DNA of 64,000 bases from Acidobacteriota bacterium (GTDB lineage: Bacteria; Acidobacteriota; Blastocatellia; Pyrinomonadales; Pyrinomonadaceae), in the NCBI GenBank assembly GCA_003385635.1, contig QQUY01000002.1, forward strand, positions 496,001 through 560,000, in the 5' to 3' direction. The notes under the pieces are model-generated. The model did not search any database, was not told the DNA's origin, and was given only the letters and a program-made list of their open reading frames with translations. Positions 1,216-46,202 of the stretch are shown one piece after another; within the stretch, counting starts at the first letter, position 1; every line of letters begins with the position of its first letter. The position numbers were made by a program, and so were the translations under genes.

Positions 1216-1477
1216 AAAATTTTTACAGCTTATAGTAAGAACTTATTTAGTCTTCTTTGGGAATTTTAGACCTCGAAAATAAACGAGCGATTAAGTGACA
1301 CTTAGTTTTATCCCGCAACCGCCGCTCCGATCACAGACAAAAATAACGGACCGCAGAATAATGCTGCTGCGGCCCGCGCCTGCTTAGAAGATTTGGCTGA
1401 TCCTTCGATTCTCTCTAAGAATTCCGATCTTTTGCCCAACCATTTCTAAAGGTAGTGAAGGAAAGATAAACGTAAGA

Positions 1478-2929
1478 TTAAAGAAGGTCTGGCTTGGTTT
1501 TCGCAGGTAAATTGACTGTAAAAACCGATCCTCGGGAATCCGATTGGGTAAGCTCCAAGTGCCCATCATGCCGTTCAGCAATCCACTTGGCGATAGACAG
1601 TCCAAGACCTGCGCCGCTTCCAAACAGGGACCTGCTCTCATTCGAGCGGGATTTGTCTACGCGATAAAATCTTTCGAATATATGAGGTTGGTTTATGACT
1701 GGAATGCCCGGGCCGTCATCAGAGACTTCAATCCTGTAGATGCCTTCTTCTTTGAATCCGCGAATCGCGACCTGAGATCCTGCATGTTTGATTGCATTGT
1801 CGATAAGATTCGTGAAGAGCCTCCTTAACAAATGCTCGTCTCCTTCAATAGGCATATCCTCTTCAACGTCCATCTCAACAGATACATTTTGTCTTAAGCC
1901 CAGGGTTCGAAAAGCCCTTACCGTTTCCGATATCACGTCATCTAGAAAGATTGAGGACTTTTGAATCTTCTTTGCACCAGCGTCAGCCCTGGCCAAGGTG
2001 AACAAGTCCTCAATAATTCTGGACATGCGTTCGCCTTCTTTCTGCATAATCTCAATCGTTTCAAGATACTCAGACGCCTCTCGGTCTTTCTTCGTAAGAC
2101 TTACCTCAGCCTCGCCGCGGACAATCGAAACCGGTGTGCGAAGTTCATGAGACGCATCTGCCATAAACCGTTTTTGTTGTTCGAACGATCTGTTCAAGCG
2201 CGCGAGCAGATCGTTGAACGTCTTCGCCATCCGTCCGAGCTCGTCTTCTTCGTTCTCTATAGGGAGTCGTTCGTACAAATTGGTTGCGTTAATATGTGCC
2301 GCTTTGTCGCTCATTTCAGCAATCGGCAAGAATGTTCTTCGAGCGAGAAAATATCCTCCAACGCTCGTAAGGAACAAGGCAACAGGAACGATCAGTAGAA
2401 GCCCATTGCGTATTCGGGCCAAAAATGCCTTTTGTTCATCAAGCGGATGGATAACGATCAACGAGAAATCGCTGTTCCCGATTCGAAAGGGATGGTAGTG
2501 GACCCGGTACAGTTCACTGTCGCTCGAGAATCCATCTAAGTTGGCTTCGCGTCTCGCGGTAAACCTATCCAGCCACTTATGCGCCGTATCCACGGAGATA
2601 TTGGGCTCCAACGCAAGGGTCTTGGTTTGCCATCGCAATTCCTTGGTCTTGGAAAAAACGAATACCTTATAGTTTTTAAAGCTTACGTCCTCAGCCGTGT
2701 GCTCAAGCGCTTCCTCAGCGGTCATTTTTTCTTGTACGTCTTCAAAGTGTCGTCGAGCTGTTATCTCGAATGATGTACCAACCTCTGATAGTGTCTTGTC
2801 AGTTAAGTCATAGAAGGAGAGTGAAAAGACCGTATACGCGAGAAAGCCAAGAACGGCAAGAATAAAAGCCAGCACCCCTACATAAAGAAAGGTTAATCTC
2901 CATCTGGCCGATCTAAGTATTTTCATCAC
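1478..2929 (-). CDS. Sensor histidine kinase (heavy-metal type, CusS/CopS-like)
   Basis: Two TM segments, HAMP, MADASHELRTPVSIVRGEAEV H-box, DNAIKHA N-box, DDGPGIP and GLGLSIAKWIAERH motifs; next to response regulator and copA. Confidence 0.92.
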   Translation of the reverse strand: MMKILRSARWRLTFLYVGVLAFILAVLGFLAYTVFSLSFYDLTDKTLSEVGTSFEITARRHFEDVQEKMTAEEALEHTAEDVSFKNYKVFVFSKTKELRWQTKTLALEPNISVDTAHKWLDRFTARREANLDGFSSDSELYRVHYHPFRIGNSDFSLIVIHPLDEQKAFLARIRNGLLLIVPVALFLTSVGGYFLARRTFLPIAEMSDKAAHINATNLYERLPIENEEDELGRMAKTFNDLLARLNRSFEQQKRFMADASHELRTPVSIVRGEAEVSLTKKDREASEYLETIEIMQKEGERMSRIIEDLFTLARADAGAKKIQKSSIFLDDVISETVRAFRTLGLRQNVSVEMDVEEDMPIEGDEHLLRRLFTNLIDNAIKHAGSQVAIRGFKEEGIYRIEVSDDGPGIPVINQPHIFERFYRVDKSRSNESRSLFGSGAGLGLSIAKWIAERHDGHLELTQSDSRGSVFTVNLPAKTKPDLL

Positions 2930-3605
2930 GCTTCAAATCTTCGAGAATGTAACCGGCACCACGCCGGGTATGCAATATCGTTACATCGGAATCCTGATCC
3001 ATTTTCTTTCGCAGACGATTCACGATTACTTCAATGGAGTTGGAAAATGGATCGTATTCCTCATTCCAACAATGTTCCGAAATTTCTTCCCTGCCAATAA
3101 CTCGATTCGCGTTTCGTGCTAAGTACTCGAGCACAGTAAACTCTTTGGCCGTGAGTGGAATCTCTTTGCCCGCTCGCCAAAGCCTCTGTGAGTTTGAGTC
3201 GATCTCTAGATCACTAACATTAAATCGAGATCCCACGAACTCTTTTTCCCTTCGCCGCAAAAGAGCATGAACTCTAGCTAAGAGCTCACCGTAGGCAAAC
3301 GGTTTTGTTAGGTAGTCATCCGCTCCCGATTCCAAACCTTCTATGCGGTCTTCCACCTCATCACGGGCCGTCAGCATAAGGATCGGTGTTTGAACATCTT
3401 GTTCTCGCAACTCTTTACATACTTCGAATCCATTCTTAAAAGGTATTACTACGTCAAGTATGATGAGATCATAGGTGTTAATCGAAGCTTGGTACAGAGC
3501 GGCCTCTCCATCTGCGGCTACATCAACAGCAAAGGCAGATTCAATCAGCCCTTTCTCAATGAAACTGCTGATCCCCACATCATCTTCAACCAGTAAAATC
3601 TTCAC
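2913..3605 (-). CDS. OmpR/PhoB-family response regulator (CusR/CopR-like)
   Basis: MKILLVEDDVGISSFIEKGL receiver with DLIILDVVIP and LTKPF; C-terminal winged helix; overlaps the HK start by 17 nt. Confidence 0.95.
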   Translation of the reverse strand: MKILLVEDDVGISSFIEKGLIESAFAVDVAADGEAALYQASINTYDLIILDVVIPFKNGFEVCKELREQDVQTPILMLTARDEVEDRIEGLESGADDYLTKPFAYGELLARVHALLRRREKEFVGSRFNVSDLEIDSNSQRLWRAGKEIPLTAKEFTVLEYLARNANRVIGREEISEHCWNEEYDPFSNSIEVIVNRLRKKMDQDSDVTILHTRRGAGYILEDLKRDENT

Positions 3606-3671
3606 GCTTAACCTCGGGTCTTAAAATACTTGACTTGCGATCGCCATAAATTCAACATTCTCTACTTCTTA

Positions 3672-4625
3672 TTACGCTTTATACATTTCCGCATCCGAAC
3701 CTGTGTCTATATGTTCTTCCTCGATCTGAATCGTCGAAAAGAAAAAGCCGTACTTGTCCTTTAATAGTTTAGTCGCTTTGTCCAGAACGGCCTGAGACAT
3801 TTCTCTACGATCAATTTGAACATGAGCCGAGAAAATGTTTTTTTCTGAGGTCAAAACCCAGGCATGTGGATGCCGAACATCTACCACCCCATCAATCCCG
3901 GCAAGATCCTTTCTTATCTCGTTTACATCCAGATCTTTCGGAACTGCCTGCATTAGAATATTGATCGCGTCTTTGATAATGCCATACGAGGCGTAAACCA
4001 AAACAACACCGAAAGCCATTCCGAGTATCGGATCTATTCTGGTCCATCCCGTAAAATAGATTACAAGCGCTGCTACGATTATGAGGACACTCCCAACAAA
4101 AGTCTGCATCACATGCCAAAACGCTCCCTGCATGTTTAAGTTGCCCTTCTGGCGTTTATATATCAAGCCAAACGCGATGAACTCTGTTACCAATCCACCT
4201 CCCGCAGCCAACATCATGATGCCTGCAGGTAAATCTAAATCTTCAAACAGCCTCATATATCCCATGTATAGAACATAGAAAGCCATCAACAGCAGAAACA
4301 GTCCGTTCAACAATGCACCGACAATTTCCGCACGCTTGTAACCAAACGTCGCGTGTTTGTCCGCAGCTCTCGCTGAAATCCTATTTGCGATGACCGCGAT
4401 CAAGATTCCCCCAACTGCCGAAAATGTGTGAAAAGCATCTGAAATCACTGCGACAGATCCCGAATAGAATCCAAGAGCCAATTCAATTACGAAATACACT
4501 CCTGTTAACCAGCCGGTGATCTTCAACACCCTGGCGTTGGCTTCTAGGCCATGAAAACTTCCTTGGTGCTCACCGGCCTGAGTTGGCATTGCACGATTCT
4601 TTGAATGCGTTTGTCTATCCTTCAT
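3672..4625 (-). CDS. Cation diffusion facilitator (CDF) heavy-metal efflux transporter
   Basis: SGSVAVISDAFHTFSAVGG and KHATFGYKRAEIVGALLN; C-terminal CDF domain; multiple TM. Confidence 0.92.
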   Translation of the reverse strand: MKDRQTHSKNRAMPTQAGEHQGSFHGLEANARVLKITGWLTGVYFVIELALGFYSGSVAVISDAFHTFSAVGGILIAVIANRISARAADKHATFGYKRAEIVGALLNGLFLLLMAFYVLYMGYMRLFEDLDLPAGIMMLAAGGGLVTEFIAFGLIYKRQKGNLNMQGAFWHVMQTFVGSVLIIVAALVIYFTGWTRIDPILGMAFGVVLVYASYGIIKDAINILMQAVPKDLDVNEIRKDLAGIDGVVDVRHPHAWVLTSEKNIFSAHVQIDRREMSQAVLDKATKLLKDKYGFFFSTIQIEEEHIDTGSDAEMYKA

Positions 4626-4818
4626 CGATCCTGCGGTGCGCTTTTCCTTCTTATGGATTTCTGGAGTCAGATTTCTGCATTAGGCAACACAAAAGATAAA
4701 CGGAGTATTAAACCGCCAAGGAATATGGAGAAAGTGCCTTAAATTCGACCTGCGTTTAATCGAGGGTTTAACTTTGTCCATATAGATTAACTAGTCGAAA
4801 GTGAACTGAGGTCTTTCG

Positions 4819-5274
4819 ATGACGAATGTAGACGCGCAAGTTAGGGCTTTAAAAAGGCCTGTCATATTGGGAATCGTATTCTCCATGACTGCGGAACTCG
4901 TGATCTTTATACTGTGGGGCCTGATTCTCTTTCCGGCCGGAAATATCTTTTATAAATTCCTGTGGGCAGTTGTATTTTGTGGCACAGGAATGGGCGCGAC
5001 GATTGGAGCAATGATTCAGCTATTTGTAATCGGCAACCTCAATGGATTGAAAGCAATAGTCGCCTGTACGCTACTCAGTGTGGTCGTACTAGGCATTGCG
5101 TGTAACTTGCTCTGCCTAAATCTGGATTCGCATTTTCACTATTTTGGAGGAATCGAGGATCCGTATTTCTTCATAGGTGGCGGTATAGTCTTGGCAGCTT
5201 TAAGCGGCGCACTTGCAGGATGGTTGATGTTCACCGCAAAAGGTATGAAGGTGTTGGACCGTGTAGGGATTTGA
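4819..5274 (+). CDS. Hypothetical membrane protein (about 4 TM)
   Basis: 151-aa hydrophobic ORF upstream of same-strand accessory genes. Confidence 0.65.
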   Translation: MTNVDAQVRALKRPVILGIVFSMTAELVIFILWGLILFPAGNIFYKFLWAVVFCGTGMGATIGAMIQLFVIGNLNGLKAIVACTLLSVVVLGIACNLLCLNLDSHFHYFGGIEDPYFFIGGGIVLAALSGALAGWLMFTAKGMKVLDRVGI

Positions 5275-5329
5275 ACAAACCGTTTCACCCAGAAGAAGTC
5301 AATCTAAATTAAGCCAAGGAGAACTAAGA

Positions 5330-5821
5330 ATGCTAAGAAAGTCAGTTTTCGCATCATTATTGAGCATTGGTCTCGTGATCGCTGCTTCACTGGTAGTCGT
5401 CTCGAAATCGGCGACACCAACCCCAGATAGCGACAAGGATGCGGTTTTAAAGGTCCTGATGCTGGAGGCGGAGTCAATCGAAAAAAACGATATCGACTCA
5501 CTTAACAAAATCTGGTCACCAGACGATTCGGTGTTGATTTTTGAGAACGGGGGTATAGACAAAGGTTGGAAGAATTACCGTGACCATCACCTTGCGCCGG
5601 AATTGCGAGCGTTTAAAAACACAAAGTTCTCAATCTCTGACGCAGTTGTAAGTGTTGATCACGATACTGCTTGGGCAACTTACAGGTATTCACTGGACGC
5701 GGATTACAAAGAGAGAAAGATCGAGAGCAAGGGCCTGGGCACGATGGTATTTGAAAAGACGAACGGAAAGTGGCTGATTGTACATTCTCATACCAGCAGG
5801 TCGAGGAAACCTGCGAGTTAG
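5330..5821 (+). CDS. SnoaL/DUF4440-like (NTF2 fold) exported protein
   Basis: Signal peptide plus EAESIEKNDIDSLNKIWSPDD...NGKWLIVHSHTSRSRKP, typical ketosteroid-isomerase-like tail; RBS aaggagaac. Confidence 0.8.
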   Translation: MLRKSVFASLLSIGLVIAASLVVVSKSATPTPDSDKDAVLKVLMLEAESIEKNDIDSLNKIWSPDDSVLIFENGGIDKGWKNYRDHHLAPELRAFKNTKFSISDAVVSVDHDTAWATYRYSLDADYKERKIESKGLGTMVFEKTNGKWLIVHSHTSRSRKPAS

Positions 5822-5829
5822 GCATCACT

Positions 5830-6480
5830 ATGGCCCGAGACAATTATGTTCCGGCACTCAGGTTTGATTGGCTTACGCCGATATACGATCCCGTAGTCCG
5901 CATAACAACTCGTGAAAAGGAATTCAAAAGAGATCTGATAGAAAACGCAGGCTTGGGTCAGCATGACACCGTACTTGATCTTGGTTGCGGTTCAGGGACG
6001 TTGATATTGATGCTTGGAAGGATGCGGTCAGGTTCGATCGTACATGGCATCGATGGCGATCAGAGAATTCTTGGGCGTGCGAACGAAAAAGTACTCAGTG
6101 CTGATAGCAGGGCAAGTTTGGTTCAGGGGATGTCTTTTCAATTGCCCTACGGAGAGGAATCGTTTGATCACGTGTTTTCAAGCCTGTTCTTTCATCATCT
6201 AACTACTGCAGACAAGGTTCTAACGTTAAATGAAGTCAGGCGCGTTTTGAAACCGGACGGAGCCTTTCATGTCGCAGATTGGGGGAGCCCCGACAACTTT
6301 GCAACGAAAATAGGTTCGTATTTTGTGGTGGCGCTCGATGGATTTGAAAAGACACGTGACAACTTCAGCGGCAGGCTCCCCGAACTGATTACAGACGCTG
6401 GATTTGCCGGTGTCGAAGAAACGAGTTCCGTTAATACCGCGTTTGGAACGATCCGGATTCTGAGATCAAAAGCAAAATGA
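5830..6480 (+). CDS. Class I SAM-dependent methyltransferase
   Basis: VLDLGCGSGTLILMLGR motif I and EVRRVLKPDGAFHVADWG; ATG at 5830 chosen over ORF-track start 5770. Confidence 0.9.
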   Translation: MARDNYVPALRFDWLTPIYDPVVRITTREKEFKRDLIENAGLGQHDTVLDLGCGSGTLILMLGRMRSGSIVHGIDGDQRILGRANEKVLSADSRASLVQGMSFQLPYGEESFDHVFSSLFFHHLTTADKVLTLNEVRRVLKPDGAFHVADWGSPDNFATKIGSYFVVALDGFEKTRDNFSGRLPELITDAGFAGVEETSSVNTAFGTIRILRSKAK

Positions 6481-6902
6481 CAGCTGATTTCAAACCGAAA
6501 ACCTTCTTGACACTATTCGGAGTTGGCTTCCTGCTCAATCTTGTCTGGGAATTGCTTCAGATGCCCCTATACACGAACCTGTCGGAATTCGGGTATTTGC
6601 TCGGGATCACGTTTTGTTCACTTGCCTCGATCATAGATGCAGTGACGATCCTCATTATTTTTGTCGTTTTGGAAGTTACCTTTGGGGTCAGCAACCTCCT
6701 CTATTACCTCGGAGCAGCTCTATTGGGTGCCGCGATTGCTGTCTTTTTCGAGTTGTTTGCACTCGAAACGGGTCTCTGGTCTTACGAGCAGAGTATGCCC
6801 GCTGTGCCCGAGTTGGACATAGCTGTTCTACCGATTGTCCAACTTACTATTCTGGTTCCATTGAGTATCTTTTTGGCGAACAAAGTAAGAGACAGGAGCT
6901 AA
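6477..6902 (+). CDS. Hypothetical membrane protein
   Basis: ATGA overlap with upstream methyltransferase; about 4 TM. Confidence 0.72.
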   Translation: MTADFKPKTFLTLFGVGFLLNLVWELLQMPLYTNLSEFGYLLGITFCSLASIIDAVTILIIFVVLEVTFGVSNLLYYLGAALLGAAIAVFFELFALETGLWSYEQSMPAVPELDIAVLPIVQLTILVPLSIFLANKVRDRS

Positions 6903-6903
6903 A

Positions 6904-7323
6904 ATGCTGACCACAAGTGTTCTAGCAAAAGAAGCGGATGTGCCAGTCTATACCGTGCGGCATTATACCCGCATCGGGCTTATCACCCCACTTCGTCGAC
7001 ACACCAACGGGTATAAAGTTTTTAAGGATTCGGATATCTCAACAATAAGGTTCATCAGGAATGCGCGAAGCCTGGGATTTACGCTGAAGGAGATTGGACA
7101 CATTCTGGATATGGCCAAATTAGGGCTTACCCCTTGTCCAACTGTCCGCGAGATCGTTCTGAGGCGAATTACCGAAAATCGGGCAAAGATCGAGACACTG
7201 CGGCGGCTTCAGGAGAAAATGGAAGAGGCGAAATCAGCATGGACGAAGATGCCTGATTCCGTACCGAACGGCGATTCCGTTTGCCATCTGATTGAAGCCT
7301 TCGATGACAAGAATAGGTACTGA
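6904..7323 (+). CDS. MerR-family transcriptional regulator (metal-responsive type)
   Basis: AKEADVPVYTVRHYTRIGLITPLRRHTNGYKVF HTH; Cys in GLTPCPTVREIV and DSVCHLIE. Confidence 0.93.
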   Translation: MLTTSVLAKEADVPVYTVRHYTRIGLITPLRRHTNGYKVFKDSDISTIRFIRNARSLGFTLKEIGHILDMAKLGLTPCPTVREIVLRRITENRAKIETLRRLQEKMEEAKSAWTKMPDSVPNGDSVCHLIEAFDDKNRY

Positions 7324-30566: not shown

Positions 30567-32252
30567 TTACTCGTCCACTGGCTTCTTGACCAACCAGTTA
30601 ACTATCTCTTGAAATATTTCAGGGATTTGGGAATCTTTATCCAGTGCAATCAATCTCGCCCGGGTAGGTTTTCTGGTGTTCGGAAATCTTTGGCAATATG
30701 CCTGATAAGTTTCCTCACCCATCGCATTTCTCAGCTCATCTTCAAAATTCTTATCAAATCTCCAAACTTCGTTTACCCCATCTGCTGTTTTGAACGAATC
30801 AAGTTTGGCATTGTACTCATTCTCACTTTCACGATCATCCTTGAACTCTGAAGAATCTTTATCGTAAACGATACCCGTTGGAATCTTGAATGAGCTAGCT
30901 ATTTTAGCAAACTCAACTAGATTTCGTTTACCACCTACTTCAACGATAGTTGCTCCTGCTCTATCAACATCAAATCCGAGTCTATTGGCGTATTCAGGGA
31001 AAGCGAGTTTCTCTGTGTCGCCTTCGACTAGCAATAAACGTGTGGCAAAGAACATTTCATTGCGTTCTGGGTCAAACTCTTTTATCAGCTTTTCCCTTCT
31101 CACGTCATTATTATCGAGATCAGATCTTCGAAGTGAAGTACCTTCTTGATCTTTACGCACCAGAATCACTTCATCATATTCGGGAATAGCGACGAAGTGG
31201 GGTGAATGCGTCGTATATATAACTTGGTTAGTCTTACCCAACTCGCGCAGCGTCTTGTAGAGAGACCTTTGCATTTGTGGATGCAAGAACATTTCAGGTT
31301 CTTCAATTAGGAATATTGCGCCTTTCTTCTTATGAGATTCGAGGGCCTGGAGCATTGCCATGATGATTGCATTTTGGAGGCCATCACCTACTTCAGTTGC
31401 GCTTATTGACATCTCGCCTTCACCTATTTGAAGGTCAAGTGATTTATAGAATTCGAAAGTATCGAAAGGTGAAAAGAACAAATTCAGCTTTTCTTCGTCC
31501 TCAACTGGATCAAACCCAAGAAGCTTCAGAGCATTTACCTTAATTGTTCTTTCAAGCTCATTAAATTGATCGGTCCGAAGCACTTTCATCGCTTCCTGCA
31601 TCAACCTGTGAAACCTCTCTAACCTGGTTACTTCAATTTCCTCACCACCTATCCTTTTTACTTTTATTTTGTTTTCAGGATCTTGAAGGTTCTGATCAAT
31701 ACTCTCGAACAACTGTCTCAAAACAGAATACCTAGAGCCGGGAAGCTGAGACCTAAGAGTTCGATTCGACCCAATATAGATTAAAGGGTTGTTTTCCCTC
31801 ACCTCCTTTGGAGTACTATATAACGTCTCGAATTTTCTCCTCTCGCCCTTCTTTGGAGCCTTTGCTAGTACAACCGGAGCATCTCCTTCTGGCCCAAAAC
31901 ATTTTTGTTCAAGACGTCGTTCACCAGCGTTGGGGCCAATCTTATAACGAGTAAATTCAAAGTAAATTGATGAAATATCTACGGGCTCAGCTTCTTTGAA
32001 TCTTTGGTACTCATACGGTGGGTCTAGTTCCAAGGTAATCTCGATGTCTTTATCTGGATCCCTTCCGTAAACATCCTCTTCAGTAAACGAATTTCGGGTC
32101 AACCAATCCTTTTCTAGTACCCTTTGGATTGATCTAAGGATATTGCTCTTGCCTGCATTGTTCGGGCCAATCAATGCACAAATAGGAGAAATAGACTCAT
32201 CTATTGCTTTAATAGATCGAAAATTTACTACTCTTATTCTTGAAATTGGCAT
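30567..32252 (-). CDS. OLD-family ATP-dependent endonuclease (AAA + TOPRIM)
   Basis: ISRIRVVNFRSIKAID, LIGPNNAGKSNIL Walker A, AIFLIEEPEMFLHPQMQRSLYKTLRELGKTNQVIYTTHSPHF, LLLVEGDTEKLAFP TOPRIM. Confidence 0.92.
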   Translation of the reverse strand: MPISRIRVVNFRSIKAIDESISPICALIGPNNAGKSNILRSIQRVLEKDWLTRNSFTEEDVYGRDPDKDIEITLELDPPYEYQRFKEAEPVDISSIYFEFTRYKIGPNAGERRLEQKCFGPEGDAPVVLAKAPKKGERRKFETLYSTPKEVRENNPLIYIGSNRTLRSQLPGSRYSVLRQLFESIDQNLQDPENKIKVKRIGGEEIEVTRLERFHRLMQEAMKVLRTDQFNELERTIKVNALKLLGFDPVEDEEKLNLFFSPFDTFEFYKSLDLQIGEGEMSISATEVGDGLQNAIIMAMLQALESHKKKGAIFLIEEPEMFLHPQMQRSLYKTLRELGKTNQVIYTTHSPHFVAIPEYDEVILVRKDQEGTSLRRSDLDNNDVRREKLIKEFDPERNEMFFATRLLLVEGDTEKLAFPEYANRLGFDVDRAGATIVEVGGKRNLVEFAKIASSFKIPTGIVYDKDSSEFKDDRESENEYNAKLDSFKTADGVNEVWRFDKNFEDELRNAMGEETYQAYCQRFPNTRKPTRARLIALDKDSQIPEIFQEIVNWLVKKPVDE

Positions 32253-35634: not shown

Positions 35635-38250
35635 TCAAACTGCGAAGAAGAGCAGCCCCAAAAACATTGGCAACCAAAGCATCTGTATGGCTCGCCGTTG
35701 GAACATGCCGGACCGGATTGACCAGAGCGGGATGAGCACAGCGACCGAAGCTATTATCAACAAGAACAACGTAATTGATATGGCCGACCTTTCGAAAAAT
35801 ACCAGCGGCAACAACAAAAGAGCACCTAGTAGCTGAAGTCCGAATCCTAAGACTGCGGTATTTGAAGATCCAAGCTTCATCGGAATTGTAACTAAGCGAC
35901 CTTCAGAATCACCGTCTATATCGCGTATGTCCATCAACCATTCACGCCCTAGGACAAAACAAGACGCCGCAATCGGAAGGAAGAGAAATGCGCTCGGATA
36001 ATCAAAGACGACCACAGAGAACAAAATGGGAAGCGATGAAACGGCAGAGGTTAGAAAGGTCTTGGTCAAACTCAAATAGGTCACGAATACGTTGTAGGTC
36101 GCAACTCCAGCAATACAAAACAAATATACCGTTAGCTGAAAGCCAGTCATCGATACAAAGATCGCAGTCCCAATTCCAAAACCGATCGAGAGCATACTAA
36201 AAAGGAGTACGAACTGTTTTGAAATCCTTCCGCTTGGAATAGCCCGATATGGTTTGTTTATCAGATCTTTGTCAACGTCGAAATAGTCGTTTAACGAGAA
36301 TCCACCAATAGCAGAGAGTAAGAACGGAAGCGCAAAATAACTTGAGTCCAGAAGACTGTTTCCAACGTAGACAGAAGGCAGAAACACGGCCAAGGATATC
36401 AACATCGTCGTCACAACACGGGAAAGAATCAAGAAACCAACAAATGAACTCAAAATCGCCTTACCGAAACCGGGCTTGGAAAAGAAGTTGATAACAGATG
36501 CAATAATGCACAAACAAGCACTTACAAAATAGAAAGCGAAAGCTAGCTGTGCTTTAGCCTGAAAAAGAGTCCCTTTCTCGAATACATCACTTAAAAAGAG
36601 GAGGATCAAACAAGTAAGGGAAGCCATTAACGACAGAGCTCTTGTAAAGTTAATTCGATCAGAAAAAACTACCGCGACTTTTTCGTCTCTCAATCTGAAA
36701 ATCAGTGGTAGGGCGATCAGTATAGATAGAACAAAAATGAAGAAAAATGCGCCCCAATTTGCAATTGTAATACCACTATCTTGATTAGGTAATGAATTCT
36801 GGATCGTTACCATCACAAGGAGCAGAATAAAGGTCAGCCCAGCAACGATCTTGCCGTAGCCCCAATGTTTGAATTTTAGCTTTTCACCCCGCCCAAGATA
36901 AATCCAAATAACAAAAGCGAAAAACGCGTGAACCCCAAAGAAAGCTAGGAACAAGGAACCGTACTGACTGAAAATAAAAAAGAACGGAAGAGCCCAAATC
37001 GAAAGCATTAGCGCGGTCAGTGCTCCCAAAGAATAAAGCTCCGCCTTATCTTGATCCATAAGAACAACATTCTGTTCCTTCCTCGCAATATCCGAAGTGA
37101 TTTTCCACGACTCGAAGACAGCAAGGTATGCGGAGACGATGATACAGAATTGCATCAGCAAAAGATCGCGAGCAACAATCCAGTATTCGCTAGCCAGGGT
37201 AGCTGCAATCGTCAGAAGCAGGAAGTATGCCAAACTCACCACCAGGAATTTCGTCTTGCTTAGATTTCTAGTTAAGAAAAACAGGATCAGCACCAATGCA
37301 ATTGGAACTAAGGCAATCGACGAATCCGACAAGGCGTGGAAGCTCAGCCCAAAATACAAGCTGAAGCCAATCAATAAAATTACCGGCCACACCAGTTGGT
37401 GCCTGATAGAAGGCAGTGTCTTCGCATTCTTGTCACGGAAAAGAAATATTCCATAGGAAACATGCAATCCACCTAATACCAATAAGGAAAGAACCAGCGA
37501 AAACGAGAAGTTATATGGCAAAAAATACGTCGGGATAAGTGCAATTACGATCAGCAAGAAGGCAACCAGCGCATAGTTCCTAATCGCATCATACCGAACC
37601 GTAATCTCAACCTCAGTGTTTTCGAGATCCGGCGGGGGGAACCGCTCGGCGTAGCACATAAAAAAGAAGATTGATGTAATTGACGGTATCGCCAGAATGA
37701 GATAGTCATCGATTTCGGCCGGCTCCAGTTGCATCCAGTACCCTGCGAAGAGCGCAGCAATCGACGTTAATGCATAAGTAAATCCTCTCCACATGAAGCG
37801 TTGGGAATTTGGGCGGCGTTTCGCCATCCGTTTCGTGTCTTCTAAAACAGCTTTAGATTCAAAACTCGTTGCGTCATCCGCTTCTGATGGTTCTTCAGTA
37901 TCTCGTTTTGAGAATGATGAGTATCGGTTTTTGACTTCCTTCAGAAACCGATAACCGTGTCCTGGAATCACCTTAATGAACTCAGGGTTTTTCGAATCGT
38001 CGTTCAGAGCCTTTCGTAACTTCGATATGCATGTCGTAACGTTTCCCTCTTCTACGGACTCATCTGGCCACACTTCATCAAGGAATTCCTCCTTGCTAAT
38101 TAGGGTCCCGGCATTCTCGACCAAGAAGACCAGAACGTCGAAATCCTTACCCTTTACGTTGAGAGTCTCTCCACGACGGTAGAGCAATCTCTCCTTAGGG
38201 ATCAGCGTGTAATCATCAAATTCAAAAAATGTCGGAGTCGTTTTTGGCAC
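35635..38250 (-). CDS. Fusion: OmpR/CadC-type winged helix + multi-TM region + UbiA-family prenyltransferase domain
   Basis: N-term FFEFDDYTLIPKERLLYRRGETLNVKGKDFDVLVFLVENAGTLISKEEFLDEVWPDESVEEGNVTTCISKLRKAL...IKVIPGHGYRFL; C-term GGFSLNDYFDVDKDLINKPYRAIPSGRIS and DIRDIDGDSEGRLVTIPMKLG (two UbiA Asp motifs); single 871-aa ORF. Confidence 0.9.
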   Translation of the reverse strand: MPKTTPTFFEFDDYTLIPKERLLYRRGETLNVKGKDFDVLVFLVENAGTLISKEEFLDEVWPDESVEEGNVTTCISKLRKALNDDSKNPEFIKVIPGHGYRFLKEVKNRYSSFSKRDTEEPSEADDATSFESKAVLEDTKRMAKRRPNSQRFMWRGFTYALTSIAALFAGYWMQLEPAEIDDYLILAIPSITSIFFFMCYAERFPPPDLENTEVEITVRYDAIRNYALVAFLLIVIALIPTYFLPYNFSFSLVLSLLVLGGLHVSYGIFLFRDKNAKTLPSIRHQLVWPVILLIGFSLYFGLSFHALSDSSIALVPIALVLILFFLTRNLSKTKFLVVSLAYFLLLTIAATLASEYWIVARDLLLMQFCIIVSAYLAVFESWKITSDIARKEQNVVLMDQDKAELYSLGALTALMLSIWALPFFFIFSQYGSLFLAFFGVHAFFAFVIWIYLGRGEKLKFKHWGYGKIVAGLTFILLLVMVTIQNSLPNQDSGITIANWGAFFFIFVLSILIALPLIFRLRDEKVAVVFSDRINFTRALSLMASLTCLILLFLSDVFEKGTLFQAKAQLAFAFYFVSACLCIIASVINFFSKPGFGKAILSSFVGFLILSRVVTTMLISLAVFLPSVYVGNSLLDSSYFALPFLLSAIGGFSLNDYFDVDKDLINKPYRAIPSGRISKQFVLLFSMLSIGFGIGTAIFVSMTGFQLTVYLFCIAGVATYNVFVTYLSLTKTFLTSAVSSLPILFSVVVFDYPSAFLFLPIAASCFVLGREWLMDIRDIDGDSEGRLVTIPMKLGSSNTAVLGFGLQLLGALLLLPLVFFERSAISITLFLLIIASVAVLIPLWSIRSGMFQRRAIQMLWLPMFLGLLFFAV

Positions 38251-38395
38251 GATATTTTGGGCTCTAAATCGGATTACATAAAAATTTAAGAATATTTCTT
38301 CCTTTTTTTAAGGACTCCTTTCCGCTGTCTCTCTATTGTTCGGAATAGGCGAGCTTTTCTTGCCTACGAATATAACAGAAAGGAGAAAACTCAAA

Positions 38396-38632
38396 ATGAA
38401 GAAGATCATCATCTCCGTGGCGGGCACGGACGGAAAACGAGAATTTAAGGACGTGGAATTGGAGCCCGGTACAAAGCCGCGGGACATTCTGACGCAGCTC
38501 GATCTAAATGGATTTCAGCTCAACAAGCCTGAGGGCGGTGCCTTTGGGTTTAACGATGACATTTATCAGGCAGTGTCGGAAGGCCAAAAGGTATTTGCAA
38601 CCAAGGCTGATGTTGAGGCCGGTAGCAAATAG
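38396..38632 (+). CDS. Ubiquitin-like (beta-grasp) small protein
   Basis: MKKIIISVAGTDGKREFKDVELEPGTKPRDILTQLDLNGFQLNKPEGGAFGFNDDIYQAVSEGQKVFATKADVEAGSK, immediately before E1/JAMM genes; RBS aaaggag. Confidence 0.65.
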   Translation: MKKIIISVAGTDGKREFKDVELEPGTKPRDILTQLDLNGFQLNKPEGGAFGFNDDIYQAVSEGQKVFATKADVEAGSK

Positions 38633-38646
38633 GAGGGACATGAACC

Positions 38647-39258
38647 ATGCCGGTCGTATTGCTGATCCTGCTCTTGATTCTCCTTTTTTGGATCCTGAGC
38701 AGGATTTCCGTCCGCGGTGGGTGGATGGATTCACCCGTCGCTCTCGCCGATAAGAGGAAAATGAAGATAAAGCCAAAAAGAAATGATCCGGTAGCAATAA
38801 AGGCAGGCGATGCCGTCGTAATCCCGCCGTCTTCTGGCGAACCGGTTCGGATTAAACCCACTGAGGCAATTGTCGTTAGCGCAGCACCTGCAACCTCGAC
38901 CCGAATCGCGGTAGCGAAACCGGTCACCGTCAAACCGCCGCGCCGCGGGGCCTGGGACGAACGCGGTTGGACAAAACAGGCAGACGGCCGGAACGAAGTT
39001 TATGAAGGGTTTTTCGTAGCCGGTGGCAACAGGTTTCAGGGCCGCATCGAAACCGCGCGGAGATCCCGGCAGATTTCCGTTTATATACGCAACCCTCCAC
39101 CGGAAATCAAAAGACACCGGAAAGGTCCGTGTTTTCAGCTCTTGAAAAACGGGTGGTTCCGCCTTCATTGGACACGGCCAGCGCGAAATGTCGACGACGC
39201 AATTCTGTACATGGAGCGGATTCTGGACGAATCGCTCCGTAACCGCAAAAGGAGATAA
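38647..39258 (+). CDS. Membrane-anchored E2-like protein (putative)
   Basis: N-terminal TM MPVVLLILLLILLFWIL; C-terminal ISVYIRNPPPEIKRHRKGPCFQLLKNGWFRLHWTRPARNVDDAILYMERIL, E2-like PP..H..G.C pattern; paralogous to 41171-41539. Confidence 0.55.
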   Translation: MPVVLLILLLILLFWILSRISVRGGWMDSPVALADKRKMKIKPKRNDPVAIKAGDAVVIPPSSGEPVRIKPTEAIVVSAAPATSTRIAVAKPVTVKPPRRGAWDERGWTKQADGRNEVYEGFFVAGGNRFQGRIETARRSRQISVYIRNPPPEIKRHRKGPCFQLLKNGWFRLHWTRPARNVDDAILYMERILDESLRNRKRR

Positions 39259-39260
39259 TT

Positions 39261-40253
39261 ATGTTGAGTCTTATGGGCAATGAAACAAAAAATGTAAATC
39301 AAGGGCCGATCTGGTCTTTGCGCCGCTGGCGGAACAAAACCTCCAACTCGGATCCGGCATTCGTTTTGGAAAAGCTCTCGAAAGCGTTGAAAAAAAAGCT
39401 CAACCGGTCATTGAAAACGATTCTTAATCTAACCGACGGATTTGATTCGATTCTGGCTATTCAGCTTTCCCTGGATCTTCTCAGCAATACCAGACTTGAA
39501 ATCGAAAAAGCGTTGGCGTATCGAAACCTCATTACCGGCGACGTTGCAATCAGTTTGCTTGATGAAGAAATCGGGAAAGTCTTAACGCTGATCAAATCTG
39601 GGCACTTCACTGATTCACCGAGGGCGCTTTCCAATGCGCTTTTTACTATCAACCAACTTTTTTGTGCAAAACAACAAATAAAGAACCAATTCTCTATTAT
39701 CACCACACCGGCGTTGCTCGATAAAAAAGCGCCGGTCCTTCAGCCTGGATCCGGCACTCCAAAACAACTTCCTCTGACCACAGGAGCAACCGGCCGCCGG
39801 ATGATAATCCATTCTTCGGTCCTCGTTCAACTGAACCAATCGCTCTTCCCGGCCGAAAGAATGATCGTAGCCGCCGGAGTTAAGTGCGGCGGAGATATCA
39901 GCGTCGGCGGTGTTTATGACGTCACCGGCGAAGCATCTCAAGCTGGCGTGAAGGCGGACGCGAATTTACTGGGGCGGGCATTGATCGCAATGGAAACCAC
40001 AGAAACTTATTTTGCTCTGTGGGTCCACTCACACCCGGGACAAGGCAAAAATGCAACGCGCCCAAGCAGCATTGACCTAAACCAAGAACAAGACTGGCTT
40101 AAGGACTACTCGCCCAATCTGGTCAACGCGATCATGGTGCGGGATCGCTTTATCCGTTTCTGGGGAAAATCCATTGAAACGAACAGGGTCACTATCAAAG
40201 TGGTTGGAAGCGGTGTCCAGAAGATTGAGCCAAATATTTACAAGCTCGACTAG
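39261..40253 (+). CDS. JAB/MPN (JAMM) metalloprotease
   Basis: YFALWVHSHPGQGKNATRPSSIDLNQEQDW = HxHPxx...SxxD JAMM motif, with upstream Glu candidate (PAERM). Confidence 0.88.
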   Translation: MLSLMGNETKNVNQGPIWSLRRWRNKTSNSDPAFVLEKLSKALKKKLNRSLKTILNLTDGFDSILAIQLSLDLLSNTRLEIEKALAYRNLITGDVAISLLDEEIGKVLTLIKSGHFTDSPRALSNALFTINQLFCAKQQIKNQFSIITTPALLDKKAPVLQPGSGTPKQLPLTTGATGRRMIIHSSVLVQLNQSLFPAERMIVAAGVKCGGDISVGGVYDVTGEASQAGVKADANLLGRALIAMETTETYFALWVHSHPGQGKNATRPSSIDLNQEQDWLKDYSPNLVNAIMVRDRFIRFWGKSIETNRVTIKVVGSGVQKIEPNIYKLD

Positions 40254-40268
40254 TTATTAGGAGATTCC

Positions 40269-41135
40269 ATGAAAATCAAAACATCAAAAGAATCCGCAAA
40301 ATTCGATGGCGATACCGACGATCTTGCGGAATTCCCAAGTAGTTTCTTGTCCGTTGAAAACCCCATTACAAGAATCACAGCAACCGAAATTCCGGTAACG
40401 CATCCGGCGGAACCGGACATGTTCGCCCGGCATGACGGTGTACCGGCTCATGACCAGGCCGCGTTGAGTGGCAAAAGAATTGTCCTTGTCGGCGGTGGAG
40501 GCCTAAACAGCTGGGTAGCGGTCGGCTTGGCAAGAAGCGGTGCCCGTCGACTGACGGTCATCGATCCGGATCGGGTTGACCGTACGAATCTATCAAGGCA
40601 GTTCTTCTTTCAAGAAGATTTAGGGGAATTGAAAGGCATGCGCCTGGCTGCCAACCTGGAGCGTCAAGCGGTTGGCGGAGCAGCAATCACCGGCATCGGA
40701 CTCCCATTTGAGGAAGCATTGGAAGACTTTTCAATTGATGCGGACATTCTGGTGGTCGGGGTCGACAACAACTCCTGCCGTTTAGCCGCGGCACAAGAGG
40801 CTCGCCGCCGGCGCATCCCTGCGGTCTTTTCAATGTTGTCGCGCGACGGAATGCGTTGCCAGGTCTTCTACCAAGACCCTACGACAATCGAGCCGTGTTT
40901 GTGGTGTGCACTTCCAAACCTTGACCCCGACAAGATCATGCCGTGTGCGTCGGCGATCATATCAAGCTGCTTTATGGCTGCCGCGTTTACGACGTTTTTT
41001 GTTCACCGAGGCCTTATGGGATGGGGAACTATCGAGAGGTTCAACTGGCGCGAAGCAGACTTGACCGGGATGGCGCTTAATCAGACCGGAATGATCAAGA
41101 AACGGGAAGATTGTCCGGTATGCAGCGGGGGTTGA
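40269..41135 (+). CDS. E1-like ThiF/HesA/MoeB-family adenylyltransferase
   Basis: GKRIVLVGGGGLNSWVAVGLARSGARRLTVIDPDRVDRTNLSRQFFF; CLWC...CPVC zinc site. Confidence 0.93.
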   Translation: MKIKTSKESAKFDGDTDDLAEFPSSFLSVENPITRITATEIPVTHPAEPDMFARHDGVPAHDQAALSGKRIVLVGGGGLNSWVAVGLARSGARRLTVIDPDRVDRTNLSRQFFFQEDLGELKGMRLAANLERQAVGGAAITGIGLPFEEALEDFSIDADILVVGVDNNSCRLAAAQEARRRRIPAVFSMLSRDGMRCQVFYQDPTTIEPCLWCALPNLDPDKIMPCASAIISSCFMAAAFTTFFVHRGLMGWGTIERFNWREADLTGMALNQTGMIKKREDCPVCSGG

Positions 41136-41170: not shown

Positions 41171-41539
41171 ATGGGAAGGATATTGGATTTTATAGAGAAC
41201 GTAACAATCGTTCTTTCCGAACCAAGGGACTGGAAGATGACCCGTACCGGAAAGCAGACGATTTACAGGGGCAAATTCTTGGTCTTCGATTACCGGGGCA
41301 AGATCAGGTACCGGATACAGGGAAGGATCGTCCAGCAAAGGACGAAATCTTCGGAAGTATATATCTTTGACCCGCCCGGTTTCGTCAAGAATCACCGGCA
41401 TGGTTCATGTCTGCAGCTGCTAAGACCCAATGACAATTGGTTCAAGCTCCATTTCGAGTATCCCGCAAAGGACTTCGCCGGTGCCTATACCTATGTTGAG
41501 CATCTTCTGACGGAAGCACTCATCAACGAGGAGATCTGA
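41171..41539 (+). CDS. Second E2-like protein (soluble, putative)
   Basis: VYIFDPPGFVKNHRHGSCLQLLRPNDNWFKLHFEYPAKDFAGAYTYVEHLLTEAL aligns by eye with the 38647-39258 C-terminus, conserving H..G.C.QLL. Confidence 0.58.
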   Translation: MGRILDFIENVTIVLSEPRDWKMTRTGKQTIYRGKFLVFDYRGKIRYRIQGRIVQQRTKSSEVYIFDPPGFVKNHRHGSCLQLLRPNDNWFKLHFEYPAKDFAGAYTYVEHLLTEALINEEI

Positions 41540-42244: not shown

Positions 42245-45200
42245 ATGCGTGAGAACACAAAACAACAAAGACAGACAGTTGCGCTGGTGGACGCCTTTAC
42301 TAAATGGGAAAAGGCGCTGCGGGGGTGGCAGGTCTTTGACTATGCGGTAGCGCTCGAACCTGTCTTCAAACATGTAAAGGTCAGTTCGAGAATCCAGGCG
42401 CCGATTACCGATGACGCAAAAGTCGGTGGCAATGTGAGCAGGTTGTTGATGAGAAAAAAGGTTGACTTCGGGGAATCTGCCGGTCAAGCGAAAGAGGCTG
42501 AACCGGAAGTAGTAAAACCCAAGGCGTTTTACCGGAAAGAACCCCTAACAGAACTTCAAATTCTGCTGCCAAACGATTTCGAGACATCACCAAATGCTGT
42601 AAGCCAGTTCATATCAAGTCTGAGCAGCATTAAAAGTCCCTTGAGTTTTGAATTATTAGCCGATTCCAAGGAAGTCATACTGCAGCTTGCATGTGACGGA
42701 GCTATCGCCGGTTTTCTAAGGAATCAACTAAACACCTTCTTTCCGGACGCCATTATTTCCGAACACGCCGGTACTCTGGAGAACCATTTTCGAAATCGCG
42801 ATCAAACCGTCATCGCGGATTTCGGATTGAAGCACAGTTTTTTGTTTCCACTTCAAACGTTTCGCAAGTACACTCCGGACCCGCTTACAGGGCTGATTAG
42901 TGTGCTCGGAAACCTGGGCGAAAACCAAAACGCCGTGGTTCAAGTGCTGTTTCAAGCAACGCAATCCGCTTGGGACACAGAAGTTAACAAAGCAATTTCC
43001 AATAAAGGGTTGCGAGCCCACCTTAATGACAACAATCCAAGGTTCGTTTCAAGCCTGAAAGAAAAACTCTCGGCTCCCCTTTTCGCTTGTTCAATCAGAA
43101 TCGCTGTTTCCGCCGCTAACAGGGAACAGGCATGGCAGACTCTCCGCCAAATCGGCGGGAATTGCAGAACTTTTTCGAGCGGCAACGGGAACGAACTCAT
43201 CGCACTCCGCAACGACATCGCTTCTCACAACAATCATTTTCTTTCGCTGCTTTCGAGGACGACCTACCGGAGTGGAATGCTCTTAAACATTTCGGAGCTC
43301 AACTCAATAATTCATCCGCCTTCTGGACCGATTGACGTTGAAAGGTTCCAACGCAACAAGAATCTCACCAAATCCGCGCCTGAGATTGCGAGACACGGAA
43401 ATCTGGTCCTTGGTGACAACAATCATGCCGGAAAATCAACAACTGTTTCCTTGTCCGAAGATCAAAGGGTGAAACATACACATATGATCGGGGCATCCGG
43501 TTCGGGTAAATCGAATCTGATGCTAAATTTGATCGCTCAAGATCTAGAAAACGGCAAGGGCCTTTGTGTCCTCGATCCGCATGGTGACCTGATAGACGAC
43601 GTCGTTTCAAGAATTCCGGAGAATAGAACAGGAGACGTCATATTGTTTGATCCCTCCGACGCGGACTTCCCAATTGGGTTCAACATCCTTAGGGCAAATT
43701 CCGAGCTGGAAAAGACACTTTTGTCTTCGGACCTGACGGCAACCTTCAAGCGGTTTTCCACCTCTTGGGGTGACGTTATGGACGCCGTGTTGTCGAACGC
43801 AATTCTCGCGATCATTGACAGTGACGACGGCGGCACTTTGTTTGATCTCAAACGTTTTCTTGTCGAAAAAGACTTCCGTGATGGAATCTTGAAATCTACA
43901 AATGATGAATCGATCCGCTACTTTTGGAACAACGAATTTCCTCTAATCAGCGGAAAACCTCAGAGTTCAATTCTTATAAGACTTGATACGTTCCTTCGCC
44001 AAAGGTTGATTCGGAACATCGTTTGCCAAAAGGAATCGAAAGTCGATTTTCGGGACATCATGGACAACCAGAAAGTCCTGTTGATCAAGCTTTCGCAGGG
44101 CGCGATAGGTGAGGAGAATTCCCATCTGCTTGGCTCCCTGATGGTCTCCAAGCTCCATCAGATCGCACTCAGCCGCCAGGATTCGCGTCAGAGGCCTTTC
44201 TTTTCTGTTTACATGGATGAGTTCCATAATTTCATAACTCCTTCGATGGAGAGCATTCTTTCCGGCGTGAGGAAGTACAACATCGGTCTTGTCTTGGCTC
44301 ACCAGGAGTTCCGGCAGTTATTGAGCAGAAATCAGGAAGTGGCTTCAAGCGTGCTTTCAAATTGTTATACGAGAATATGCTTCCGTCTCGCAGAAGCTGA
44401 CTCGGAAAGACTTGCGAAGGGGTTTACGTTTTTTGATGGCAAAAGCCTTCAAAATCTAGGTGTAGGCGAAGCGATCGTTCGAATTGAACGAGCGGAATAC
44501 GACTTTAATATGACTACAGATCTTACGAAACAAGTTGAGGCCACGGCTGCGTCCGAGCGCCACTCCGAAGTTCTCGTTGAGTCTCGCCAGAAATACGCCG
44601 CATCAAGGGAACGGGTCGAAAAGGAACTTGGAATTGAGTTTCTCGTAGCCTCATCGAGTACCAAAAAACATAAAGACGGAAACAAAATTAAGCCCGTTAC
44701 GAAAAAGGAAAAGCAAAAACTCTCAAGCGGCAAAAAAGCCAGAGACAGGGAATCTGGGGACTCGCCTTTTCAAGACAGGGGTCATGCGAAGCATGTTTAT
44801 ATTCAGAAGCTGCTCAAGAGAATCGGAGAAAGAAGTGGTTTCGTGTCGAACATCGAGCAACAGGTGTTTGGCGGAGCCGGAAAAGTTGATGTTGCGCTGG
44901 AAAAAGATGGACTGAGAATCGGTTGTGAAATTGCGATTACAAATTCCGTTGAGTATGAAATTTCGAACATCCAAAAATGTTTTGCCGCGGGATTTGAGCA
45001 TGTTGCGGTGGTTTCAGAAGACGAACAACATCTAGCGAAGATCAGGAAATATTCCAGCGAGTTGGTTTCGGGACTCCAAAAAGAAAAGCTGCACTTTCTT
45101 TCGCCGGAGAACTTCCATCATTTCCTTGATTCGGTGACTAACACCAAAATCGGATCAGAAACCGGTTCAAGGGTAAAGGGATACAAGATAACTATTGAAT

Positions 45201-45280
45201 CCGCACCAGAGAATGAAGCAGAACGAATAAAAGCTATCACTAAGATCCTGGATGAGGCTAAGAGGCGAAATGCAAAATAA
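42245..45280 (+). CDS. TraD/HerA-like DNA-translocase ATPase with C-terminal PD-(D/E)XK nuclease-like domain
   Basis: HTHMIGASGSGKSNLMLNLIAQDLENGKGLCVLDPHGDLIDDV; FFSVYMDEFHNFITPSMESILSGVRKYNIGLVLAHQEF; C-term VDVALEKDGLRIGCEIAITNSVEYEISNIQKCFAAGFEHVAVVS. Confidence 0.9.
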   Translation: MRENTKQQRQTVALVDAFTKWEKALRGWQVFDYAVALEPVFKHVKVSSRIQAPITDDAKVGGNVSRLLMRKKVDFGESAGQAKEAEPEVVKPKAFYRKEPLTELQILLPNDFETSPNAVSQFISSLSSIKSPLSFELLADSKEVILQLACDGAIAGFLRNQLNTFFPDAIISEHAGTLENHFRNRDQTVIADFGLKHSFLFPLQTFRKYTPDPLTGLISVLGNLGENQNAVVQVLFQATQSAWDTEVNKAISNKGLRAHLNDNNPRFVSSLKEKLSAPLFACSIRIAVSAANREQAWQTLRQIGGNCRTFSSGNGNELIALRNDIASHNNHFLSLLSRTTYRSGMLLNISELNSIIHPPSGPIDVERFQRNKNLTKSAPEIARHGNLVLGDNNHAGKSTTVSLSEDQRVKHTHMIGASGSGKSNLMLNLIAQDLENGKGLCVLDPHGDLIDDVVSRIPENRTGDVILFDPSDADFPIGFNILRANSELEKTLLSSDLTATFKRFSTSWGDVMDAVLSNAILAIIDSDDGGTLFDLKRFLVEKDFRDGILKSTNDESIRYFWNNEFPLISGKPQSSILIRLDTFLRQRLIRNIVCQKESKVDFRDIMDNQKVLLIKLSQGAIGEENSHLLGSLMVSKLHQIALSRQDSRQRPFFSVYMDEFHNFITPSMESILSGVRKYNIGLVLAHQEFRQLLSRNQEVASSVLSNCYTRICFRLAEADSERLAKGFTFFDGKSLQNLGVGEAIVRIERAEYDFNMTTDLTKQVEATAASERHSEVLVESRQKYAASRERVEKELGIEFLVASSSTKKHKDGNKIKPVTKKEKQKLSSGKKARDRESGDSPFQDRGHAKHVYIQKLLKRIGERSGFVSNIEQQVFGGAGKVDVALEKDGLRIGCEIAITNSVEYEISNIQKCFAAGFEHVAVVSEDEQHLAKIRKYSSELVSGLQKEKLHFLSPENFHHFLDSVTNTKIGSETGSRVKGYKITIESAPENEAERIKAITKILDEAKRRNAK

Positions 45281-46202
45281 TCAAAGTAAAGATTCGGATC
45301 CGCAAAGTCCTGTAAAGGAGGTCGGCGGAGTTGCGCCTTTTGGATATAAATGGCTCGAAGGTCAGCTTTTAGTCGACGAGGAGGAAGCTCCGATACGGCG
45401 ATTGATATATGAGCTGTTTCTGAAACACAAAAGAAAGAAGACTGTTGCGAGGATTCTAAATGAGACCGGACACCGAACCAGAAAAGGAGCACGGTTCTCC
45501 GATACAACAATCGATCGTTTGATTCGCGATTCAACCGCAAAAGGAATTCGAACTGTAAAGGGCAGAGCCGTTACGGTTGATCCAATTGTTGAAACAGCTA
45601 TTTGGGAAAGGGCAAATAACATCCTTGGAAAAACGAGAAAGCCTGCGAAACAGTCAGCCACTATTTTCTCCGGCTTAGTCTTCTGTAATTGCGGTAAACC
45701 TATGGTACGCCGAAAGAGTGCGAAAACATTTTCGTGTGCACTATGCGGTACCAAAATCGAAACATCAATCATTGAAGAGGCGTTTGCAGAACGAAACAGT
45801 GCGATAATCCTTTCGGGACGAAAGGATTCAATTGGAGAAAACTGGAACATCCTTACAAAACGTGAAAAACAAATAGTGGCTGAAAACCTTATAAATCGAA
45901 TTGTGATAGAGAGGGATACGATTAGATTCGAATATAGAATTAATACTAATTCATTTAAAACGGCGTTTGAATGGCAACAAAACCGTGGAGGGACGGAAGT
46001 TCCGGCCGGCGGTTACCGGAAATCAGAACTGGAAGAACCCTTGCTCAGCGAAACAGAAGCAGCACAATTGCTCGGAATCTCCAGAATGACACTACATAGA
46101 TGGCGAAAGGCCAACAAAATCAAGTACTTTCAAGTAGGATCAAGGATCTTGTACTCCAAGGAAAAACACCTAAATTCGTTCCTCAGAGACAGAGAAAAAT
46201 GA
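45270..46202 (+). CDS. Serine-recombinase derivative lacking the resolvase catalytic domain, fused to excisionase/MerR-like HTH
   Basis: Starts at recombinase domain VGGVAPFGYKWLEGQLLVDEEEAPIRRLIYELFLKHKRKKTVARILNETGHRTRKGARFSDTTIDRLI; zinc-ribbon-like FCNCGKPM...CALC; C-term LSETEAAQLLGISRMTLHRWRKANKIKYFQVGSRILYSKEKHLNSFL. Confidence 0.85.
   Translation: MQNNQSKDSDPQSPVKEVGGVAPFGYKWLEGQLLVDEEEAPIRRLIYELFLKHKRKKTVARILNETGHRTRKGARFSDTTIDRLIRDSTAKGIRTVKGRAVTVDPIVETAIWERANNILGKTRKPAKQSATIFSGLVFCNCGKPMVRRKSAKTFSCALCGTKIETSIIEEAFAERNSAIILSGRKDSIGENWNILTKREKQIVAENLINRIVIERDTIRFEYRINTNSFKTAFEWQQNRGGTEVPAGGYRKSELEEPLLSETEAAQLLGISRMTLHRWRKANKIKYFQVGSRILYSKEKHLNSFLRDREK

Follow-up and report, generated by a model that had tools for sequence, protein, structure and literature searches.

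The window, a stretch of 64,000 nucleotides from an acidobacterial genome (G000), carries on its minus strand an open reading frame of 871 amino acids (35635-38250), which begins with a GTG codon and has zero internal stops. Pfam recognised Trans_reg_C (PF00486) at aa 27-102 (E 4.5e-18; 65.5 bits against a cutoff of 26.2) and UbiA (PF01040) at aa 634-857 (E 3.1e-23; 82.8 bits, cutoff 34.2). These matches, together with the uninterrupted frame, bear out the original prediction of a winged helix (wHTH) at the N-terminus, many transmembrane (TM) helices and a UbiA domain at the C-terminus of one protein, and the UbiA similarity was clear enough in the profile search to withstand refutation. The gene belongs to a mobile region, where it lies between recombinase genes with an OLD/GajA-like nuclease gene near it, and it diverges from a ubiquitin-like (Ubl) conjugation operon. 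The divergent arrangement (38250 versus 38396) had also been predicted and leaves 145 bp between the two genes.

Features of the fusion gene and of the divergent Ubl operon (positions within the window; aa, residues of the fusion protein)
Feature	Position	Strand	Basis or remark
Winged-helix domain, OmpR/CadC-type, N-terminal	37936..38250	-	aa 1-105; PF00486; PDB relatives CadC 5ju7, ToxR 8b4b
Linker, charged, variable	37795..37935	-	aa 106-152
Membrane module, 14 predicted TM helices	36457..37794	-	aa 153-598; hydropathy and loop charges
UbiA prenyltransferase domain, 9 predicted TM helices	35635..36456	-	aa 599-871; PF01040; alignments with 6m31 and ChlG 9sas
Divergent intergenic region, 145 bp, presumed operator/promoters	38251..38395		sequence
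Ubiquitin-like protein gene, first of operon	38396..38632	+	conserved Ubl / E2-like / JAB / E1 order in relatives; no Pfam match
E2-like protein, conserved Cys motif RHRKGPCF, role inferred	38647..39258	+	position and motif kept in L048, L049, L059, L060; no notable Pfam match
JAB/JAMM peptidase	39261..40253	+	weak Prok-JAB match; L049 relative E 1.1e-4; invariant HSHPG, then S, D
E1-like adenylating enzyme	40269..41135	+	ThiF E 3.8e-24; PADLOC E1-E2 models
HerA/TraD-like ATPase, last large gene of operon	42245..45280	+	TrwB_AAD_bind E 5.8e-15; same place in L048, L049

The solved structures nearest to the wHTH by sequence include the response regulator 1p2f and CadC 5ju7 (E 8.9e-12). In the C-terminal domain, both Asp-rich motifs foreseen in the original prediction, NDYFDVDKD (aa 654-662) and DIRDIDGD (aa 774-781), aligned with the active-site regions of 6m31 (the digeranylgeranylglyceryl phosphate synthase of M. 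jannaschii; E 2.6e-10) and of chlorophyll synthase 9sas, and all four homologues, including those at L034 and L035, retain the key Asp positions. The UbiA domain is probably an active prenyltransferase. No NCBIfam equivalog cutoff was reached by this domain (best score 83 bits versus 296), and since the scores fall far under all of these cutoffs, its substrate cannot be named.

The wHTH and UbiA domains are separated by about 450 residues with 14 TM helices, which lie outside all known families, a point that the original prediction overlooked. No Pfam match was obtained between the two domains, no family in Pfam, NCBIfam or PDB covers the module, and no credible match outside the family was present among 327 genomes of the phylum; its homology is confined to four loci of the family. 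The idea that the module is a second UbiA copy or a visible duplication was rejected, as hhalign gave probabilities below 1%. WYL, HTH+peptidase and STAS/GHKL kinase domains were absent from the fusion in the Pfam scan, and PADLOC returned no match to the protein. An AlphaFold model (window and L029 rows) was too uninformative for fold searches (pLDDT 34).

To describe the topology, TM segments were set by hydropathy and placed by hand. The resulting model contains 23 TM segments with 38 K/R residues in the 12 inside loops versus 2 in the 11 outside loops, a large contrast in charge. The wHTH and the loops bearing NDYFDVDKD and DIRDIDGD are thereby all predicted to be cytoplasmic, and the wHTH is predicted to be tied to the membrane by its own chain. 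The same model has no periplasmic domain, an absence on which the original prediction was silent. Since the longest outside loop is only 10 residues long, the protein would be without a periplasmic sensor of the ToxR/CadC kind, and any signal would be expected to come from the membrane or the cytoplasm.

The proteins of the divergent operon offered several observations of their own. The Ubl proteins of the window (38396-38632, plus strand), L048, L049, L059 and L060 share a conserved DV.AG motif, after which the tail varies (SK, ESFRA, LYVRPSTL, LAA); it resembles a precursor tail that the JAB peptidase would trim after the Gly. The products of 38647-39258 and 41171-41539 (both plus strand) resemble each other in their C-terminal domain, in which a Cys is conserved (RHRKGPCFQL and RHGSCLQLL), and are probably two E2-like paralogues; a similar domain, apparently fused to a Ubl, is encoded at L061 (7532-8218, minus strand). 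At 45252-46202 (plus strand) a serine-recombinase-like protein is encoded whose sequence starts at the Recombinase domain; it has no catalytic resolvase domain, and its end is formed by an excisionase-type HTH_17. The OLD/GajA-like ATPase-TOPRIM gene (30567-32252, minus strand) adjoins a serine recombinase and is possibly a defence gene of the same element. No relatives of the JAB protein were found in viral contigs or plasmids.

The fusion also occurs in G399, another species of the same genus, where the protein has 863 aa and is 89% identical overall. There it is encoded on a 5,325-bp contig (JABDJV010000279.1) of a Pyrinomonadaceae MAG (acidobacteria), and its flanks, a DUF932-like gene and the divergent Ubl operon, match those in the window. 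This implies that the fusion is not an assembly error limited to one genome, and the search for it elsewhere, which yielded this one other species, removed the objection that no other genome might carry it. The amino-acid identity between the two proteins was 91% in the UbiA and membrane parts and 80% in the wHTH, and the dN/dS values were 0.12 for the wHTH, 0.10 for the membrane part and 0.11 for the UbiA domain. In the linker, which is 10 residues shorter in G399, dN/dS was 0.24 over 35 aligned codons and identity 71%. The value of about 0.1 in every domain indicates that all of them have been under purifying selection as one frame. The dS was about 0.85 up to approximately aa 225 and about 0.4 thereafter (1.6 for Ubl, 0.49 for JAB); a recombination breakpoint at the wHTH junction was considered and rejected, as dS declines along the gene with no clean step at that point. 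The fusion was found in this genus only. Its relatives were absent from viral contigs, plasmid and phage records held nothing beyond a domain-length match, and a search of open-licence papers gave no earlier description of a wHTH-UbiA fusion.

Full-length relatives of the membrane and UbiA parts were present in 4 of the 119 genomes of the family (G000, G399, G383 and G477). The G383 and G477 proteins are 45% and 42% identical, respectively, and start just ahead of the first TM helix; there was no wHTH in or near the gene in either genome, nor did the JAB search detect a Ubl operon in either of them. The occurrence of the membrane+UbiA unit with neither wHTH nor Ubl operon in two genomes outside the genus, a point missing from the original prediction, indicates that this unit is a protein in its own right and that the wHTH is an added module. 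At L034 of G383 (1341-6920, plus strand), about 50 bp separate the gene from a Type ISP restriction-modification gene (PF18135, E 3.4e-73) that follows it in the same direction. The G477 gene has a Schlafen-type helicase gene no more than about 5 kb away, and DprA and phosphoribosyltransferase genes are near.

The link between the fusion gene and the Ubl operon, proposed from the window, held up in the comparison of genomes. JAB-related operons were identified in G399, G157, G455 and G114 within the family and in G172 outside the class. A wHTH gene is divergent from the Ubl gene in all four readable operons of the family (G000, G399, G157 and G455), which represent two genera; the G114 contig ends upstream of the Ubl operon, and G114 is outside this count. 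The divergent gene of G157 encodes a protein of 425 aa in which the wHTH is followed by a soluble C-terminal domain with no TM helix and no Pfam match, unrelated to the membrane+UbiA part, and the G455 gene begins in the same way, with a wHTH and then a soluble-type part. Compared with the wHTH of the window, those of G157 and G455 show 41-43% identity, and within its own genome each ranks first among the wHTH matches, though narrowly. In a tree of 37 wHTHs the four divergent ones cluster together (96/77). However, an alternative grouping with the host wHTH G000d passes the AU test (0.44), and the supported clade of four was lost when the G439 sequence was added. Thus, a common origin of the divergent wHTHs is weakly suggested by one tree and is not robust to sampling. 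Shared descent fits, and so does recruitment of a wHTH to this place more than once; both would point to a wHTH acting on the Ubl promoter region. The presence of a wHTH gene beside the Ubl operon across two genera, with different C-termini, supports an operon regulator with an exchangeable sensor.

At the same time, the association is not exclusive, since the Ubl operons of G172 have no wHTH gene in the readable stretch and the soluble-type wHTH gene of G439 occurs without a Ubl operon on its 8.3-kb contig, G439 also having given no JAB match in the family-wide searches. The G439 gene adjoins an isochorismatase-like gene. The same pair is seen in G157, and in both genomes (L048, 6732-8594, and L095, 868-2754, both on the minus strand) the gene comprises a wHTH and a soluble domain of about 310 aa; the pair thus occurs with and without a Ubl operon. 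In G172 (L060, 2305-4019, minus strand) the Ubl gene is preceded, with a few-base overlap, by a co-directional gene that is DNA methyltransferase-like, as named from the sequence.

We also searched the 145-bp intergenic region for an operator. A pair of TTTAAG motifs with 22-bp spacing looked good at first, but in the unbiased repeat test it was not above chance in G000 or G399 (p(max) 0.5-1.0) and was rejected as an operator; no other repeated site exceeded chance in either genome by this test. Repeats with 22-bp spacing were significant only in G157 and G455, at longer window sizes.

We tentatively propose, giving it slightly less than an even chance, that the fusion protein is a membrane-embedded one-component regulator of the Ubl operon whose sensor consists of the UbiA domain and its 14-TM partner. 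The proposal builds on features read from the sequences (the domains, the intact catalytic motifs, purifying selection, the modular origin and the conserved divergent position) and on a predicted topology. It is favoured because both domains score far above their cutoffs and the fusion has been kept in two species at a dN/dS of about 0.1, because G157 and G455 also have a wHTH gene divergent from this Ubl operon despite the soluble C-terminus there, and because the G383 and G477 homologues lack both the wHTH and the Ubl operon. Against it stand the absence of an operator above chance in G000 and G399, the weak support for a common origin of the wHTHs (the G000d grouping and the effect of adding G439), the soluble-type wHTH of G439 without a Ubl operon, the G172 operons without a wHTH and the restriction of the fusion to one genus. 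We infer DNA binding, the target promoter, the direction of control, the ligand and catalytic activity. The cytoplasmic wHTH would bind the 145-bp region and set the expression of the Ubl operon, and probably that of the fusion gene itself. The signal would be read within the membrane by the 14-TM module and the UbiA domain: a prenyl diphosphate or a lipid acceptor, on being bound or turned over, would shift the membrane part to another conformation or oligomeric state, and this in turn would alter the DNA-binding activity of the wHTH.

Alternatively, the protein could be primarily a membrane enzyme that transfers prenyl groups to a lipid or soluble acceptor, in which the wHTH is an autoregulatory addition that tunes the gene's own transcription to substrate or product, as in trigger enzymes, and the Ubl operon would be affected, if at all, only as a by-product of sharing the intergenic region. 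The intact catalytic motifs agree with this, as do the dN/dS values of the UbiA and membrane parts, which are as low as that of the wHTH, the higher identity of these parts (91% versus 80%) and the existence of the enzyme without a wHTH in G383 and G477; the genome has three other UbiA genes, which could cover housekeeping, so that the fusion need not. Nevertheless, in the other genus the wHTH is still divergent from the Ubl operon although the gene there has no UbiA part, and the scan of the flanking genes turned up no biosynthetic genes to provide an acceptor. We regard the enzyme explanation as unlikely, though worth keeping in view.

It is less probable still that the membrane+UbiA unit serves as an effector in defence or as a membrane-stress module, travelling on mobile elements with varying defence partners and placed here under wHTH control beside a Ubl defence operon. 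The restriction-modification neighbour in G383, the helicase, DprA and phosphoribosyltransferase genes in G477, and the recombinase genes and the OLD/GajA-like nuclease in the window would suit such a unit, but these amount to three contexts only, and the 14-TM module has no known relatives and the protein no PADLOC match. A chance fusion in a decaying element, in which a host-type wHTH was joined to a passenger gene with no specific function, would fit the confinement to one genus and the abundance of wHTHs: ten or more occur in these genomes, many in long frames, and the window's genome has 13 wHTH-type matches, several in frames of 500-740 aa. However, the dN/dS of about 0.1 across two species and the finding, in a second genus, of a wHTH gene at the corresponding position next to the operon make a chance fusion very improbable.

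A further step from the regulator proposal, and a rather doubtful one in our estimate, is that a transcription factor with an active membrane prenyltransferase as its sensor controls the Ubl conjugation operon, so that the state of the isoprenoid or lipid pool (e.g., upon envelope damage or infection) turns conjugation on, and that different lineages attach different sensors to a wHTH at the same place. Such control would mean a membrane or isoprenoid-pool input for bacterial ubiquitin-like systems, unlike the DNA-damage input of the regulators described in PMC13373217. It would also widen the ToxR/CadC principle to a DNA-binding protein in which a multi-TM enzyme replaces the periplasmic sensor.

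Each step of the proposed mechanism is plausible in the light of known systems. Bub, Bil and CBASS operons are often preceded by dedicated regulators (CapW, CapH+CapP, CapK+CapS), described as DNA-damage-responsive (PMC13373217); like the fusion gene, which is divergent in G000 and G399, their genes adjoin the promoter of an immune operon of the ubiquitin-like or a related type, but no OmpR-type wHTH joined to a membrane enzyme is among them. GGPP acts directly on CrtR, a divergent MarR-type regulator (PMC7432914), which resembles the fusion in its position at a divergent promoter but is of another type and has no prenyltransferase domain. UBIAD1 is a UbiA enzyme that serves as a geranylgeraniol-responsive target in a ubiquitin-linked pathway (PMC4374513); it is thus an isoprenoid-responsive regulator, although its action is on protein degradation and it lacks a wHTH. 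With the UbiA prenyltransferases (6m31, 9sas) the fusion shares the 9-TM domain, both Asp-rich motifs, the NKPYRAIPSGR stretch and the predicted cytoplasmic active-site loops, and it differs from them by the additional N-terminal 14-TM module and wHTH. The closest parallel in design is with ToxR and CadC (8b4b, 5ju7), in which an N-terminal cytoplasmic OmpR-type wHTH, a linker and a membrane anchor are likewise joined in one chain and the gene is near its presumed target. In those proteins a single TM helix is combined with a periplasmic sensor, whereas the fusion, with its 23 predicted TM helices, lacks any periplasmic domain and carries an enzyme domain at the C-terminus, which on the topology model sets it outside the ToxR/CadC family as usually defined, though it may work in a similar way. 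Both domains are already known, and the principle is that of ToxR and CadC.
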